From an uncultured Candidatus Melainabacteria bacterium (GTDB lineage Bacteria > Cyanobacteriota > Vampirovibrionia > Gastranaerophilales > Gastranaerophilaceae), in the NCBI GenBank assembly GCA_947364235.1, contig CANARY010000007.1, positions 62,001-126,000 of the forward strand: a stretch of 64,000 bases of DNA, written 5' to 3'. The notes below the pieces were generated by a model. It was not told where the DNA came from. It saw only the letters and a program-made list of their open reading frames with translations, and made no database searches. Each line of letters begins with the position of its first letter. The first letter of the stretch is position 1. Position numbers and translations under genes: made by a program. Positions 5,175 through 25,536 of this stretch are shown piece by piece.

Positions 5175-6989
5175 TTTTGATAATGATAATACTGCTTTGT
5201 TTTGGTCGAAAGAAAGGTTTAGTTTTGTTACATCTGCTTCATCGATTTTGCCAAGAGCAAAAAGGTCTTTTGCCAGATCAGCTCTTATGCTGCTTGGTAA
5301 ATAATTTAAAACAATTATAGGTGTAGATGACAATCTAACGAAAGTTTCGATTGCGCTTTTGAAAGCAGCGTTTGTTTCATAAAGTCTTTGAACAACAGTG
5401 GATTTTTCGCAATCAGGAGCGTTGTTTATAATGTCTTTAAAATTTTTATTAGTTTTTATTATTTCAGATTCTGAAGTTGTTTTTTCAACTCTGAATTGTG
5501 TCTTTTCTTCTGTTTTGTTTATTTTTTGTTTTAAATTTGCTAAATTTGATGTGTTAACATTTTCTCTGCTTCTAAAACCGAGGTCAGGAGTGTTGTCAGC
5601 ATTTTCTGTGTTTTTTGCAGCAGGAGCTTTTAATTCTTCGCTGCTTCCGTTTGCAACTCTGTTATAATTCTTGTCTGTAGCTTTGTTTAAAATTTCTTCA
5701 ACTTTTGCAACAGGCATAGAGAATTCATTTTCATGCATTTTTACGTAATTATTAACGTTTTGTAAAATGTCTTTGTATGCAGGAGTTTCATAAGCGTCTG
5801 CGTTTAAAGCAGCTAAATGTGATTTTTTGAATTCTTCTGAAAATTCACCGTTAATTGTACCAAGAAATTCTCCGGCAGATACTCCGTTGATGAAGTTTTT
5901 CTGTTCAGTTAAAACTTGTTTTTCAGCTTCTGTGAACTCAGCCTCAACTCCTTCAGCTTCAGCTTTTGCGATTTTCTGCTGAATTGATTCAAGAGTTTGT
6001 TTATTGTTTTTGAACCATTCAAGGCGTGCTGTATTATATGCTTCGTGGCCTTCTGCTCTGTCTTCTTCAGTTTGATTTTGGAAGATGCATTTTGCAAGAG
6101 CAATAGTTTCATCCTGGCTCATTGCTTCTTCAATAATGACTCCGTTTTCATCGCATAACGGCTGTGAAGTAATCTTTTTGAGATATTCTGGTTCACCTGC
6201 ATGTTTTGCAACAGCTTTTTTGATTTTTGGGCAGCAGCTTGCAATAGTTGTTTCTACTGCTTTAAATCTGTTTTTGCTGTATAAGAATTCAACTACTTCT
6301 AACAGCATTTCTTTTTCATCATCAGGTGAATTAATGACGTATGTACCAAATGTTTTTAATTGTTCTTGTATTTCTTTTTGTTTTGGGTTGTGTTTTACTT
6401 GTCTGAATAATTTTCTGCAATTTCTTTTTATAGCTATTTTAATTTGTTTTTCAGATGTATTTTCTTTTGTAGAACCTTCTGGCAAATAACCATCTTTAAC
6501 AAGCTTTTCAAATAAGGAATTGCATTCGTTTTTTGAATTCCATTCTTTGTATTCTTCTATTTTCCATCCGGTTTCTACTGCAACAAAATAATCGTTGCTA
6601 AGTTTATTAGCTTTTTCAATGTCAATCCTGCCGTCTTTGTTAATAGAATCTTTTAATGCTGCTTCAAGGCATTGAACGTATGTATTTATTACTTTTATTT
6701 TTTCTTCTTTACTTGCTTTAGCAGCAACATTTGCCGGAATTTGACTTGCTTTCTGAATCATAGGATTTCTTTTTAAGTCTTCTATTGTAATTCCGTATTT
6801 TTTAAATTTTTCGCAAATTTTTTCTAAGATTTTATCTAACTCAGATTCAACAGTTTGTGCAGTTTCTTCTGAATTTTGAGATTTTACTTCATTATATACA
6901 GAATTAGGTGCAGAAACCTTTCCAGCGTTCTGTACTATTTGTTTTTTATAATCATATTCTGTTGTAACATTGTTATTAACCGAAACCAT
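5172..6989 (-). CDS. Large hypothetical helical protein
   Basis: A 605-aa, Lys/Glu/Asn-rich helical protein with no signal peptide or membrane segment. The N-terminus carries a short amphipathic region (KILEKICEKFKKYGI, about residues 52-66), the middle is predicted coiled coil (about residues 330-370), and residues about 445-520 are a low-complexity linker. The C-terminal domain has VRLSSTPIIVLNYLPSSIRA (about 554-573). It resembles the 600-aa neighbour in layout and in parts of sequence. It has its own terminator directly after the stop codon and a partial TGTAACA repeat 81 bp upstream of its start. No function can be assigned. Confidence 0.7.
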   Translation of the reverse strand: MVSVNNNVTTEYDYKKQIVQNAGKVSAPNSVYNEVKSQNSEETAQTVESELDKILEKICEKFKKYGITIEDLKRNPMIQKASQIPANVAAKASKEEKIKVINTYVQCLEAALKDSINKDGRIDIEKANKLSNDYFVAVETGWKIEEYKEWNSKNECNSLFEKLVKDGYLPEGSTKENTSEKQIKIAIKRNCRKLFRQVKHNPKQKEIQEQLKTFGTYVINSPDDEKEMLLEVVEFLYSKNRFKAVETTIASCCPKIKKAVAKHAGEPEYLKKITSQPLCDENGVIIEEAMSQDETIALAKCIFQNQTEEDRAEGHEAYNTARLEWFKNNKQTLESIQQKIAKAEAEGVEAEFTEAEKQVLTEQKNFINGVSAGEFLGTINGEFSEEFKKSHLAALNADAYETPAYKDILQNVNNYVKMHENEFSMPVAKVEEILNKATDKNYNRVANGSSEELKAPAAKNTENADNTPDLGFRSRENVNTSNLANLKQKINKTEEKTQFRVEKTTSESEIIKTNKNFKDIINNAPDCEKSTVVQRLYETNAAFKSAIETFVRLSSTPIIVLNYLPSSIRADLAKDLFALGKIDEADVTKLNLSFDQNKAVLSLSK

Positions 6990-21050: not shown

Positions 21051-21575
21051 TTAACCGTTTGTTCCGTCGAAATCAAGTTCTTGTTGTTTTTCTGCCCATT
21101 CGCCCCGAATGTATTTAACGGCTTCGTTTCTTAAAACATCGAGTTGTTCTTTCATATATTGAGGAACCTCGAAGCCTTGTTCGTTATCAATCATCACATG
21201 CGGCGTATTTAAACATAAAGGCGACGGACAATTTTCAAGTTGTACTTGTCCCGAAATAATAACGCCCCCTTTTTCTGAAAAATTAACGGTTGTAATCAAT
21301 GTTTCATCGACCTTGTCGTCCGAAAATTCGCAAATTTCACAAAACCCTTGAGCCAAATCCTGCATTGCTTTCAAGAATGAATCAAGGGGTTTCCCTCGAC
21401 CTTTTGAAAGTGTTGTATTATCGGCGTTTGATGTGTTTGAATTGAAATCGATTTCGGGAATGTTTGTTTTTGCATCGATTCTGATTTTCTTAATAAATCC
21501 CTCGAAATTGGATTCAAATTTTTGTTTGAATTGAACGACTTTCCCCGTCGTTTTCTTTGGTTTACCTTTTGCCAT
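21051..21575 (-). CDS. Hypothetical phage protein
   Basis: A 174-aa protein from the ATG at 21575 (site AGGAGGAG). The N-terminus is basic (MAKGKPKKTTGKV), the middle mixed alpha/beta, with Cys residues at GFCEICEF and ENCPSPLC. No family recognised. It follows a terminator-like hairpin and may start a separate transcript leading to the lysis genes. Confidence 0.55.
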   Translation of the reverse strand: MAKGKPKKTTGKVVQFKQKFESNFEGFIKKIRIDAKTNIPEIDFNSNTSNADNTTLSKGRGKPLDSFLKAMQDLAQGFCEICEFSDDKVDETLITTVNFSEKGGVIISGQVQLENCPSPLCLNTPHVMIDNEQGFEVPQYMKEQLDVLRNEAVKYIRGEWAEKQQELDFDGTNG

Positions 21576-21614
21576 ATTCTCTCCTCCTTTTTTACTGACA
21601 AAATTTCCCATACT

Positions 21615-21716: not shown

Positions 21717-22274
21717 TTATTCTTCGCCGTTCTTTTGCTCTTTGGCGAATTTGTATTCGTTGTAAAATTCTTCTTTTTTCTGATAGAGGAACATCCAAAG
21801 TTCAATAATTTCTTGAATATTCATCATAACGGCGTTCGCCGCTTTTCCCGTTACATCAAAAACATTTGTCTTTATAGCCAAAAATGGAGTTATGTCGCCC
21901 CCTGCCAACTTGTAAAGATTGATTTTTGGTTCGAATTCATCAATTATTGAAGAATATAATTTGTGCCAAATCGGCTTATATTTTTTCCCGTTTTTATATT
22001 CAACGCCCGTGCGTAATTTGTTTGAAAACTCGTCGAATTCGGCTGAATTATCTTCATCATTAAATTTCTTATATTCAATCGTGATTTGATATTCTTCCCA
22101 CTCGTTAAACGACATAAACGCTTCTTCATATTCATAAAAGATTGAAATTTCGCCCGAATCGTTTTCTTTTACAACTTCTTTTATATTCCTTCGATAATAA
22201 ACCCCGTTTGGGCTTGAAGTAATATCAATTTCGCTCGGTTTTTGGTTGCTCTGAACCATTTTGAATTCTGCCAT
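21717..22274 (-). CDS. Phage tail-associated protein downstream of DGR
   Basis: A 185-aa acidic protein. The N-terminal part (PSEIDITSSPNGVYYRRNIKEV, then EYEEAFMSFNEWEEY) is like short proteins found after tail-fibre genes in gut phages, and the C-terminal half is helical. It starts inside the RT gene (50-bp overlap) with AGGAGG upstream, so it is translated together with the RT. It could be a tail-fibre chaperone or a DGR accessory factor; I cannot decide. Confidence 0.55.
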   Translation of the reverse strand: MAEFKMVQSNQKPSEIDITSSPNGVYYRRNIKEVVKENDSGEISIFYEYEEAFMSFNEWEEYQITIEYKKFNDEDNSAEFDEFSNKLRTGVEYKNGKKYKPIWHKLYSSIIDEFEPKINLYKLAGGDITPFLAIKTNVFDVTGKAANAVMMNIQEIIELWMFLYQKKEEFYNEYKFAKEQKNGEE

Positions 22275-23382
22275 TTTTCCTCCTGTCGTGATTACTCATT
22301 ATTTTTTTACATAAATCAATAGAAATAAACGGTTCAATGTGGTTTTTATAGGCGTTGTAAGTGTCTGTCGGGCTATACCAACCCATATATGAAATCATTT
22401 GACAAGCATCGAACCAAGTTATTTTTAATTTTTTGTGCAATCTCAAAGCCGTTCTTATTGACCTTAAAAATATTGATTTCCGAATAGTTGTTTTATCCCG
22501 ATAAAATTTGAAGCCCATAAAATCAATCGGTCGTCCGTGTCTTTTGCCGTCTTTGTCGGTGTAATCAAATAAAAAGACTTGCCAATTTCCTTTTATTGTC
22601 AAACCGATTTCTGCAAGATATTTTTCGATTTCTTTGAAATTTTTATGAAGTTCTCGTTTGTTTCGCCCAAAAATAACGATGTCGTCCATATAACGCATAT
22701 AAAAGGCGACTTTTAAAACTTCTTTTACATAATGGTCGAACGGTTGAAGAAACCAATTAGCGAACCATTGTGAAGTATAAAATCCAATCGGAAGCCCTCT
22801 TTTGATAATTGTTCCGTCGGGCATAGTTCCGACATTGGAATCAATAACAAAATATATAAGTTTCAACATCACATCATCTTTAATAATTTTGGCGAAGCGT
22901 TCTTTTAATAAGTCCGTGTTTATACTTTCGTAAAAATGATGAATGTCGAATTTTAAAACATATTTAATCTCTTTGGGATTATTTTTTATAAATTTTTCAA
23001 GATATTTTTTACCGTAATGAACCCCACGACCCGGAATTGAGCCGCAGGAAAATTTATACATCCCCTTCATAAAGATTGGTTGAAGGGTTTTTATAACAAT
23101 ATGTTGAATCCATTGTTCGGGATTAGTAACCGTAAAGAACGGTTGAATTATTATCCGAAGTTTTTGTTTGAATCCGTCATTTATAATTCTTGCTTTATGA
23201 ATAATGGGTTTTAATTTGCAACCCAAAATCAGTTCCCGAAGTTTTACTTTGAGCCAATCTCTATTTTTGATTACCCTTTGAACCTCGGATCTTTCTTTTT
23301 TCTTTTGGGAAGCCGATTCAAGGGCTTCGTCCATTGTTTCATCGCTTAAAGCGATATTGATTAGATTTTTATATGTTCTCAT
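22225..23382 (-). CDS. DGR reverse transcriptase
   Basis: A 385-aa reverse transcriptase of the diversity-generating retroelement type. It shows the SCGSIPGRG motif (112-120), motif A FDIHHFYESI (145-154), the DGR-typical GLPIGFYTSQ (196-205) in place of QGxxxSP, and the catalytic YMDD (231-234). It copies the TR RNA with errors at adenines and feeds the cDNA into VR1. It lies just downstream of the TR in the same direction, as in known DGRs. No classical avd gene is next to it. Length is complete. Confidence 0.95.
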   Translation of the reverse strand: MRTYKNLINIALSDETMDEALESASQKKKERSEVQRVIKNRDWLKVKLRELILGCKLKPIIHKARIINDGFKQKLRIIIQPFFTVTNPEQWIQHIVIKTLQPIFMKGMYKFSCGSIPGRGVHYGKKYLEKFIKNNPKEIKYVLKFDIHHFYESINTDLLKERFAKIIKDDVMLKLIYFVIDSNVGTMPDGTIIKRGLPIGFYTSQWFANWFLQPFDHYVKEVLKVAFYMRYMDDIVIFGRNKRELHKNFKEIEKYLAEIGLTIKGNWQVFLFDYTDKDGKRHGRPIDFMGFKFYRDKTTIRKSIFLRSIRTALRLHKKLKITWFDACQMISYMGWYSPTDTYNAYKNHIEPFISIDLCKKIMSNHDRRKNGRIQNGSEQPKTERN

Positions 23383-23515
23383 AATTTCAAGAGGTTCTCT
23401 TACTAATAGCCTTGCGAGCTTTCAAAACTTTTACTGACACGCACCTCTTGTTCGGCTGATTTTTGCCAAGGGGCAAGGATAAAGACCTGCATTGTAAGAA
23501 AAAATTTTAGTAATC

Positions 23516-23626
23516 GAGCGACACGCCATAGTTCCAATTCGAGTTCGAAACGGCGTTGTTGACATTGAAAGCAAAAGCCCCAACAAGCAAGCCGTTATTC
23601 GGTTGACAACCGAAACGGGCGAAGCC
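23516..23626 (-). repeat. DGR template repeat (TR)
   Basis: 111 bp, aligned without gaps to VR1 and VR2. Read on the minus strand it has eight AAT/AAC codons at exactly the positions that vary in VR1, the pattern expected for a template whose adenines are mutagenised. It lies 133 bp upstream of the RT start. The end GGCGTGTCGCTC is shared with both VRs. An open frame covers it but has no ribosome site; I treat it as non-coding RNA template. Confidence 0.93.
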
Positions 23627-23670
23627 GCAGGTCGATACCCTTTCTATTTTCTTATTAAGTTTTAGTAATT

Positions 23671-23781
23671 GAGCGACACGCCACGGTACCAAGCCGAGTG
23701 CGAAACGGCGTAGTCGACGGTGCAAGCAAAAGCCCCAACTAACAAGCCGTCATGCGGGTTGCAACCGAAAAGGGCGAAGCC
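23671..23781 (-). repeat. Second, orphan variable repeat (VR2)
   Basis: 111 bp aligned to the TR with 19 differences: 11 at TR adenines and 8 elsewhere. The flank after the repeat (AATTACTAA) resembles the TR flank rather than VR1. It is not attached to a full target gene: the open frame through it is 63 codons with no good ribosome site. It is best read as a remnant of an earlier target or a duplicated cassette. Confidence 0.8.
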
Positions 23782-23856
23782 ACAGGTCAAAACCCATTCA
23801 ATAATTTTATTCGGTGTCAAAACCCCCGTCAAGATTCTTTCGGAAGAATTCATCTC

Positions 23857-23876
23857 AACGGGGGAGTTCCCCCGTT
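23857..23876 (-). other. Hairpin next to VR1 (candidate DGR retrohoming hairpin)
   Basis: AACGGGGG-AACT-CCCCCGTT on the minus strand forms an 8-bp stem and 4-nt loop, overlapping the target gene's stop codon and 25 bp after VR1. In the Bordetella phage DGR an 8-bp hairpin/cruciform with a 4-nt loop just after the VR aids retrohoming. It could also act as a terminator, but no T-tract follows. Confidence 0.6.
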
Positions 23877-25536
23877 AGCCCCCCGAAGAGGGTTTGAAAG
23901 AGAGCGACACGCCATAGTACCAACTCGAGTACGAAACGGCGACGTCGACACCGAAAGCAAAAGCCCCAACTAACAAGCCGTCAAACGGTTGACAACCGAA
24001 ACGGGCGAAGCCAACAACAGTCGAATTACTCCACCAACCGTCGCAAAAATAAGTTGATGAAGAACCTCCCGATTCATTGTTAGGAACAAGCCCAATGCCC
24101 GGAACAAGAGTCATTTTCTTTATATATTGCTCCGTAACGGTTCCACTTGCAACAACGCCCGAATCAATATAGCCGTCGCCTGTTGAATTGTAATCTTGAA
24201 CGGTTGAACCGTCGGAAGTTCCTTCGCACATTTTATACAAAAGTTTTCCGTTCTTTTGAATACAACCGTTCGTTATTTTCCAAATATTTCCCCACCAATT
24301 TTCGATGTGGAATACTTTTACGGCTCCGTTTGCGTTGTCGCCATAGAACATTCCCTTTTTGTCGAGAGTTCCCGTGTTTAATTGGTTATTATTGTTTTGC
24401 GAGCCTCCCGAATAACGCCCCGTTCCGAATGTGGTTTGTGTGTCTGTTGATTTACCGATTAAAATTAACAAGTAATTTATTAAACGGCGAAGAGAATATT
24501 CATCAACATTCCAACCCGTGCCGTTTGCTTTGGCGTAAGCGATTTGAGTATCGCCCGCCACATTTTTACAAATTGCTTGACCCGACAATGAACGGATTTT
24601 GTTTGAAATATTGCAACCGTCATATATTGAACGATAAACAAAATCGGAATATGTTCCGTCTTTCTTTTGATGAGTGTAACAATCGGCACCTTCGAACGAT
24701 TCGTTCCCGATTGTAATTTTCATCGCACCACCGTTCAAAACTTCTTCTTTTATCCATATTTGACCAATTTCAACCATTGCGTTAGCAGTTTGGGCTGTGT
24801 TGGCAATATCGGACGGGGTTATTCCGTCGGCTTGGAATGAATAATCGTTTTCATATAAGTAATGTTTAACGGTTCCGTCGGGATTTAACATACACGGACG
24901 GAATAAACTCATAAAGAACGCCTTTTTCCAATCGCCGTAATCAAATTCCCCCGTTGCATAATTCATTTTTGCAGGCTTGTAATTTTCACATTCGCCTTGA
25001 TAAATAACACGGGTCGCAGGGTTTGAATCCGTCGGATTGATTATGAAAGAATACAAACGCATGCCGAATGTATTTTGTGAATCCAAACAAACAACCCCGT
25101 TTAATGAAATTGGAAACGCTTTGAAATAATATTCTTGTTCGCTTTCGGGAAGTGTAATTTCCAAAGGCGTTATATTATAAGCGTTTCGAGTTTTATTTTC
25201 GATTACAATATCGCCGTCGGATTCGTTTTCGGGTACGCTTCCGGCTTTTCCGACAATAACAGTTTTAGCCCAAGAACAAAGAACTTGTCCGTCGATAACG
25301 GTGTCGTCGGGGTCTTTCCATTTTAAATAAACTTTGTTGTTTGCTTTTGTTTTTCTTAACGCCGTACATATTGACGGGGGAATTCCCGAAGCGTTCTTTT
25401 GTTCTAAAATTCCCTTGATTGCAGTATCGATTTTCCTCCAATTATTGTCCAAGTCATAACCGAAGTCGAATAATTCGTCGCCGTCGGTTTCCATATTAAC
25501 CGTTTTTAAATTTATTGTAGGTGTAAAGTTTGGCAT
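23875..25536 (-). CDS. DGR-diversified tail receptor-binding protein
   Basis: A 553-aa protein at the end of the tail gene cluster. Residues 1-50 look like a short attachment region (DFGYDLDNNWRKIDTAIKGI), about 55-160 a fibronectin-like beta domain, and the C-terminal half (about 200-553) a C-type-lectin-like/formylglycine-enzyme fold typical of DGR targets (HIENWWGNIWKITNG, FCDGWWSNS). VR1 encodes residues 509-545, with the variable sites placed as in ligand-binding loops. It should bind the host surface and be retargeted by the RT. Confidence 0.9.
   Translation of the reverse strand: MPNFTPTINLKTVNMETDGDELFDFGYDLDNNWRKIDTAIKGILEQKNASGIPPSICTALRKTKANNKVYLKWKDPDDTVIDGQVLCSWAKTVIVGKAGSVPENESDGDIVIENKTRNAYNITPLEITLPESEQEYYFKAFPISLNGVVCLDSQNTFGMRLYSFIINPTDSNPATRVIYQGECENYKPAKMNYATGEFDYGDWKKAFFMSLFRPCMLNPDGTVKHYLYENDYSFQADGITPSDIANTAQTANAMVEIGQIWIKEEVLNGGAMKITIGNESFEGADCYTHQKKDGTYSDFVYRSIYDGCNISNKIRSLSGQAICKNVAGDTQIAYAKANGTGWNVDEYSLRRLINYLLILIGKSTDTQTTFGTGRYSGGSQNNNNQLNTGTLDKKGMFYGDNANGAVKVFHIENWWGNIWKITNGCIQKNGKLLYKMCEGTSDGSTVQDYNSTGDGYIDSGVVASGTVTEQYIKKMTLVPGIGLVPNNESGGSSSTYFCDGWWSNSTVVGFARFGCQPFDGLLVGAFAFGVDVAVSYSSWYYGVSLSFKPSSGG
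23902..24012 (-). repeat. DGR variable repeat (VR1)
   Basis: 111 bp at the 3' end of the tail protein gene. Compared with the TR there are 13 differences: 11 fall on TR adenines, covering all eight AAY codons, and the other two are in one leucine codon (TR CTT, VR TTA). Non-adenine positions are otherwise identical, which is the signature of adenine-specific mutagenic retrohoming. Confidence 0.95.

Follow-up and report, generated by a model that had tools for sequence, protein, structure and literature searches.

A 64,000-nucleotide stretch of the genome of an uncultured Candidatus Melainabacteria bacterium (contig CANARY010000007.1, positions 62,001 to 126,000; hereafter the window) was analysed for the diversity-generating retroelement (DGR) that it carries in a prophage tail region. 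We propose, at a probability of roughly 0.8, that this is a probably active phage DGR of a known kind in which two tandem template units lie before one shared RT-18 RNA and one reverse transcriptase (RT), and that it is subject to self-writing and template turnover. What we read as template turnover would consist of the duplication, rewriting, replacement and switching of templates. The preliminary description of this DNA had placed an RT, a template repeat (TR) and a variable repeat (VR) in order on one strand, and these do make up a complete DGR. The single TR that it reported is actually two tandem template-like units at 23502-23656 and 23657-23811; that description was sound with regard to the DGR, its C-lectin target and adenine mutagenesis, and had overlooked the second template unit.

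The RT-proximal unit (minus strand, 23502..23656, core 23516-23626) is taken as the working TR on the basis of its eight AAY codons and its fit to the VR, a 111-nt core at 23902..24012 on the minus strand that repeat alignment places at the 3′ end of the target gene. The VR and both template units align without gaps. There are 13 mismatches between the VR and the RT-proximal TR in 105 bases, 11 of which fall on the 19 adenines of the TR (hypergeometric P = 2.0e-8), and 8/8 of the AAY codons in the TR core are changed in the VR. The figures given earlier for these codons and adenines, as well as the gap-free alignment, were confirmed. Both non-adenine changes in the VR reside in codon 13, which is CTT in the TR and TTA in the VR; this codon is also TTA in the second unit and is TTG in the intact relatives L004 and L040. 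It had been further anticipated that VRs would change at TR adenines among strains. This was borne out in the related single-template loci L010, L012 and L045, which are near-identical, with 0 differences in 1050 nt of the RT and in 955 nt of the target upstream of the VR; their VR pairs showed 14, 10 and 10 differences, 34/34 of them at TR adenines. For the window phage itself no second strain was found, the best relative among viral contigs having 72% RT identity. The TR/VR pattern lends good support to adenine mutagenesis by the window DGR, and the three near-identical relatives support activity. We infer that the phage may retarget its host.

The two template units stand in tandem with a 155-nt period and are 81% identical, such that the window departs from the single-template DGR layout of one TR per RT. 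The second, RT-distal unit (minus strand, 23657..23811, core 23671-23781) is adenine-depleted and has flanks of the TR type (5′ ...GACCTGY GGCTTC, 3′ ...CTC RAT TAC TAA...), unlike those of the VR. It differs from the TR at 19/105 bases, 11 of them TR adenines (P = 1.2e-5). At the 90 positions where three intact TRs (window, L004 and L040) are unanimous, it is changed at 10/18 adenines (56%) versus 4/72 other bases (6%; P = 5.2e-6), while the window VR is changed at 11/18 and 0/72 of the same positions, respectively. All eight AAY codons are altered in the distal unit. The unit lies in no gene, with only 33 open codons upstream and an in-frame TAA soon past the core. Since the changes are so concentrated at adenines, a non-genic copy bears the mark of the DGR, and the distal unit looks as if it had been written on by the DGR itself.

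We considered the possibility that the distal unit is a dead duplicate under ordinary mutational decay, as some extra copies elsewhere are changed broadly and with weak bias (L002, L018 and the -427 copy of L070). The disparity between adenines and other bases, together with the alteration of every AAY codon, makes this very improbable. A second VR belonging to a second target gene is barely conceivable: the adenine changes are VR-like and the frame is open through the core, but the short open frame upstream, the TAA soon after the core, the template-type flanks and the lack of a hairpin all argue against it. The candidate second target gene was itself rejected on the 33 upstream codons and the template flanks. 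A search for further targets in the source genome (G000) gave 6 matches to the TR, all of them in the two RT-18-type DGR loci. The second of these, L002 (G000 C1:352846-353943), has two template copies with the distal one diverged. A third DGR of the same genome, L003 (G000 C1:307313-308320), has an RT of 32% identity and its own TR/VR pair with a different target gene; no RT-18 RNA was found in it at the gathering score.

A weightier alternative, though still an unlikely one, is that the distal unit is a relic of a former VR, the core of which was recombined into a template unit by gene conversion or unequal crossing-over with no direct writing by the DGR. Recombination between VR and TR does happen, as indicated by two relatives: in L070 an exact duplicate of the VR core and its 173-nt downstream spacer occupies a template position, and L047 has a fusion of target and template with no separate VR. 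The TTA at codon 13 common to the VR and the distal unit also agrees with such an origin. However, the distal unit is template-flanked on both sides, so a double exchange would be needed. In addition, three of its four non-adenine changes at the unanimous positions would alter the protein (CGT>CTT, TTC>TGC and the T>C in TAT>CGT). This is unlike what selection would leave in a coding copy, but drift at a later stage could explain it. Direct writing and VR capture cannot be separated by the sequence. As to the two relatives themselves, the duplication of core and spacer in L070 lies at -989 to -427 relative to the RT, and each of the two cores departs from the TR at its own set of adenines; the copy at -708 consists of the VR core plus the downstream spacer of the VR and is thus a VR duplicate. 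In L047 (about 5770-6000), the target ends in an adenine-rich template-like repeat followed by spacer and RT, as if VR and TR had been fused by a deletion.

Our proposal that the templates themselves are rewritten finds parallels in other loci. The unused copy in L040 is changed at 13/18 adenines versus 6/72 non-adenines, two unused copies in L041 at 12/18 versus 10/66 and 14/18 versus 13/66, and the -708 copy in L070 at 7/18 versus 0/75. By comparison, intact TR pairs across loci rarely differed at adenines: with the first member as reference, they had 1/11, 1/12 and 0/13 of their differences at adenines, and 3/12 for L040/L001. A working template may also be affected. The proximal TR in L042 has 10 adenines and its orthologue in L009 has 20; of the 14 positions at which the two differ, 10 are adenines in L009 and none is an adenine in L042. 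The L042 VR follows this TR, with 8/8 mismatches at adenines. The working template in L042 is worn, with half of its adenines lost relative to the L009 orthologue.

To place the window array among its relatives, 201 RT loci were reduced to 96 distinct ones, 58 of which had RT identity of at least 41% and 47 of these a VR and at least one TR. A hand tally found two or more TR-like copies in 12/47 loci, with two to four stacked before one RT: the window (L001), L002, L004 (three), L009, L018, L040, L041 (four), L042, L043, L044, L046 and L070 (three). No more than one copy was found in the other 11 of the 58 (L050, L014, L021, L101, L047, L160, L048, L061, L026, L202 and L172), in some cases because the contig ends. 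The repeat model was built from this family and may overlook worn copies in distant relatives; the first 51 loci, scanned for repeats without a model, gave largely the same picture. Multi-copy loci made up 10/17 at RT identity of at least 55% (after rounding) and 2/30 below it (Fisher P = 1.7e-4). On a tree of 45 rows built by a quick method, with 3 short ones dropped, the multi-copy label needed 7 changes, at least 6 judging by starred branches. The at least six changes and the concentration of arrays near the window RT indicate that arrays come and go. Some individual loci merit mention. L063 duplicates L041, and its genome is in the same family as that of the window. L040, with 70% RT identity, is on a 4-kb contig that was binned to Clostridia and may be mis-binned. 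The RT relative L076 (G369) has 12 in-frame TGA codons, which suggests a phage reading TGA as an amino acid.

The template in use could be assigned from the fit of each VR. The RT-proximal TR is the one that fits the VR in L001, L002, L004, L009, L018, L040, L041 and L042, and likewise in L070, leaving 0-2 non-adenine mismatches. The VRs of three loci from two lineages fit the distal TR instead. The L043 VR has 4 mismatches (0 non-adenine) to the distal TR versus 29 (25 non-adenine) to the proximal, the L044 VR 10 (1) versus 34 (25), and the L046 VR 5 (1) versus 29 (24). L043 and L044 have 0/243 differences in both TRs and the linker, where the probability of none is 0.002 at the flanking rate, and differ by 2.2-2.8% in the target gene, spacer, the segment labelled sp and RT; their VRs differ at 13 positions, 12 of them distal-TR adenines. 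Barring an exchange of VRs with other phages, the distal template was at work once the array was in place. L008, the sister of L046, has a single TR that resembles the proximal TR of L046 (7 differences), which indicates that the VR backbone changed along the L046 branch. In L011, the VR misfits its sole TR: there are 16 non-adenine mismatches, none of them before codon 12, which would be compatible with replacement of the template.

These loci raise the possibility that an array is a cassette bank in which each template holds a different binding-domain backbone and the phage switches backbone by the template it uses. The distal templates used by L043, L044 and L046 have a different backbone (about 25 non-adenine differences). 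The unused proximal TRs of the three keep 6-7 AAY codons and resemble the sole TRs of the sisters L010 and L008 (12 and 7 differences), and the misfit in L011 is also compatible with this idea. On the other hand, the VR fits the RT-proximal copy in the window, in seven other multi-copy loci and in L070. Many unused copies are adenine-poor and would be expected to yield little diversity, and the RT would have to pass the proximal copy to reach the distal one. We therefore regard a cassette bank as possible, yet we lean against it.

Returning to self-writing and template turnover, we envisage the following sequence of events. Reverse transcription of the array RNA, with errors at adenines, would start within the RT-18/spacer region that the units share, and the cDNA would replace the VR beside the hairpin, thereby varying the binding face of the tail protein. 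Occasionally the same cDNA, or the VR by recombination, would enter a template copy and consume the adenines of that copy. Tandem duplication would provide fresh copies, with arrays holding the spares, and the role of working template would have passed, in certain relatives, to a distal copy whose backbone is different.

Several observations weigh against this proposal. No hairpin follows the template units, while the DGR of Bordetella phage BPP-1 needs its hairpin for efficient homing; a weak hairpin-independent route has also been suggested there (PMC3240598). Writing into a template would consequently need such a weak route or recombination from the VR. Not all extra copies show the adenine bias: the L002 copy at -366 resembles plain drift (6/18 adenines versus 16/66 non-adenines, P = 0.31), the bias is weak for L018 at -422 (8/18 versus 18/75, P = 0.077) and L070 at -427 (9/18 versus 16/75, P = 0.018), and two extra copies in L004 are hardly mutated. 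The window VR shares TTA at codon 13 with the distal unit and not with the TR, so the present TR does not fully account for it. Finally, the cases are not all independent, since L043 and L044 are sisters and L009 and L042 share an orthologous array. The window VR could also be regarded as a mosaic of both templates; codon 13 is the sole support for that, and the TTG in L004 and L040 permits a change in the TR instead.

The target gene (minus strand, 23875..25536) encodes a 553-aa tail protein (phrog_5302) with the VR at its end. Its C-terminal 250 aa were modelled from 48 sequences, namely the window and 47 of 48 listed references with L049 omitted, at a mean predicted local distance difference test (pLDDT) score of 92.3. 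The closest solved fold was that of TaqVP, the Thermus aquaticus DGR variable protein (PDB 5vf4), with Z = 20.9 and a root-mean-square deviation of 2.6 over 219 aligned residues; Mtd variants gave Z of 11.4-11.9 and Treponema denticola variable protein 1 gave 10.5. A profile match of the target to TaqVP had E = 7.3e-4. The full-length model was poor at the C-terminus, with pLDDT block means of 24-33 over about the last 60 residues, and a PDB sequence search with the full-length target alignment returned 0 matches. On the strength of these structural matches, the modelled C-terminus is a C-type lectin fold, and the earlier C-lectin reading is right. The window domain differs from TaqVP in having 14% identity to it and in belonging to a phage tail protein.

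The RT (minus strand, 22225..23382) has 385 aa and matched PF00078 (E = 9.6e-20) and the phrog_1423 reverse transcriptase (E = 1.5e-90) in profile searches. The SCGSIPGRG, GLPIGFYTSQ and YMDD motifs reported earlier are present in this open reading frame (ORF). An [I/V/L]GxxxSQ motif is typical of DGR RTs, and the window RT has it in GLPIGFYTSQ, an assignment by motif. Matches to defence RTs in a PADLOC scan were all weaker; in an NCBIfam scan every match was far under cut-off. The RT-18 structured RNA (RF03021; minus strand, 23399..23475) is present in single copy between TR and RT, scoring 54.0 bits against a gathering score of 41.3. The window and the 16 further loci searched each have one copy, directly before the RT. 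As to Avd or a substitute accessory protein, the ORFs at 21717-22274 and 21051-21611 had no Pfam match, in scans that did not include an Avd model.

On the minus strand, the target gene (25536-23875) is followed by an inverted repeat, the distal unit, the proximal unit, the RT-18 RNA and the RT. The inverted repeat (minus strand, 23857..23876) has an 8-bp stem and a 4-nt loop that is not GRNA; it lies 25 nt downstream of the VR and overlaps the target stop codon, and there is none after either template unit. A hairpin after the VR is a feature of phage DGRs, and this one is a candidate target-recognition hairpin by analogy with BPP-1 (PMC3240598). Surrounding genes encode baseplate J-like, GP46-like, hub, tape measure, portal, GpA terminase, major head and replication proteins, and a phrog_95 integrase is encoded on the plus strand of the neighbourhood. 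The neighbourhood is that of a temperate phage with a contractile-tail type baseplate, and the prophage tail-module setting described earlier is likewise supported by family matches, as the C-lectin-like target is by these and by the C-terminal model compared with TaqVP and Mtd. The source genome is 1.93 Mb in 12 contigs, and the host is probably a gut member of the Gastranaerophilales, which are non-photosynthetic relatives of cyanobacteria. Taken together, the window DGR is complete, of a known kind and probably active.

The window DGR resembles that of BPP-1 (Mtd) in having TR, VR and RT on one strand, adenine-directed change, a C-type lectin tail target and a hairpin downstream of the VR (PMC3240598). 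The BPP-1 DGR has been reconstituted in an E. coli reporter (PMC12875486). The window DGR is unlike that of BPP-1 in its two template units, its non-GRNA loop and the RT-18 RNA between TR and RT; Avd, too, was not found in the scanned neighbouring ORFs, which were not searched with an Avd model. Related RTs occur in Butyrivibrio phage Arawn (46.1% identity), Faecalibacterium phage FP_Epona (38.1%), crAssphage LMMB (33.0%) and Psychrobacillus phage Perkons (29.1%), each with one VR-TR pair upstream of the RT. When up to 1.5 kb preceding the RT was scanned for self-repeats, none of five annotated phages with 29-46% RT identity showed an extra template copy; the fifth, LBR48, had no repeat pair in a record where only 821 nt precede the RT. 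More than one TR per DGR is known from the MetaCSST survey, e.g. two TRs in Stenotrophomonas sp. SKA14 and six in Pseudomonas costantinii, the latter called atypical (PMC6642488). The consulted portion of that survey contains no description of head-to-tail arrays before one RT and one target, of distal template use or of adenine wear. A search of the open-access literature, supplementary tables excepted, turned up no account of templates arrayed in tandem, of use of the distal one or of wear. Within that literature the tandem array, together with its distal use and wear, is an undescribed variant, and published cases may exist.

The window DGR itself is ordinary and its template array is the interesting part. 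The usual view of DGR templates is that they are stable and protected and that change passes from the template to the target. We tentatively suggest that the templates of this clade could be consumables: the machinery would write on its own templates, adenines would be lost irreversibly, and duplication, spares and switching (whole-backbone swap) would sustain diversification. If templates are rewritten and renewed in this manner, the lifespan of a DGR would be finite and set by its adenines, and arrays would amount to repair. The worn non-coding copies would then be a natural fossil record of DGR mutagenesis free of selection at the protein level. If templates are rewritten or switched, phages could alter not just the side chains of a receptor-binding domain but its backbone too.

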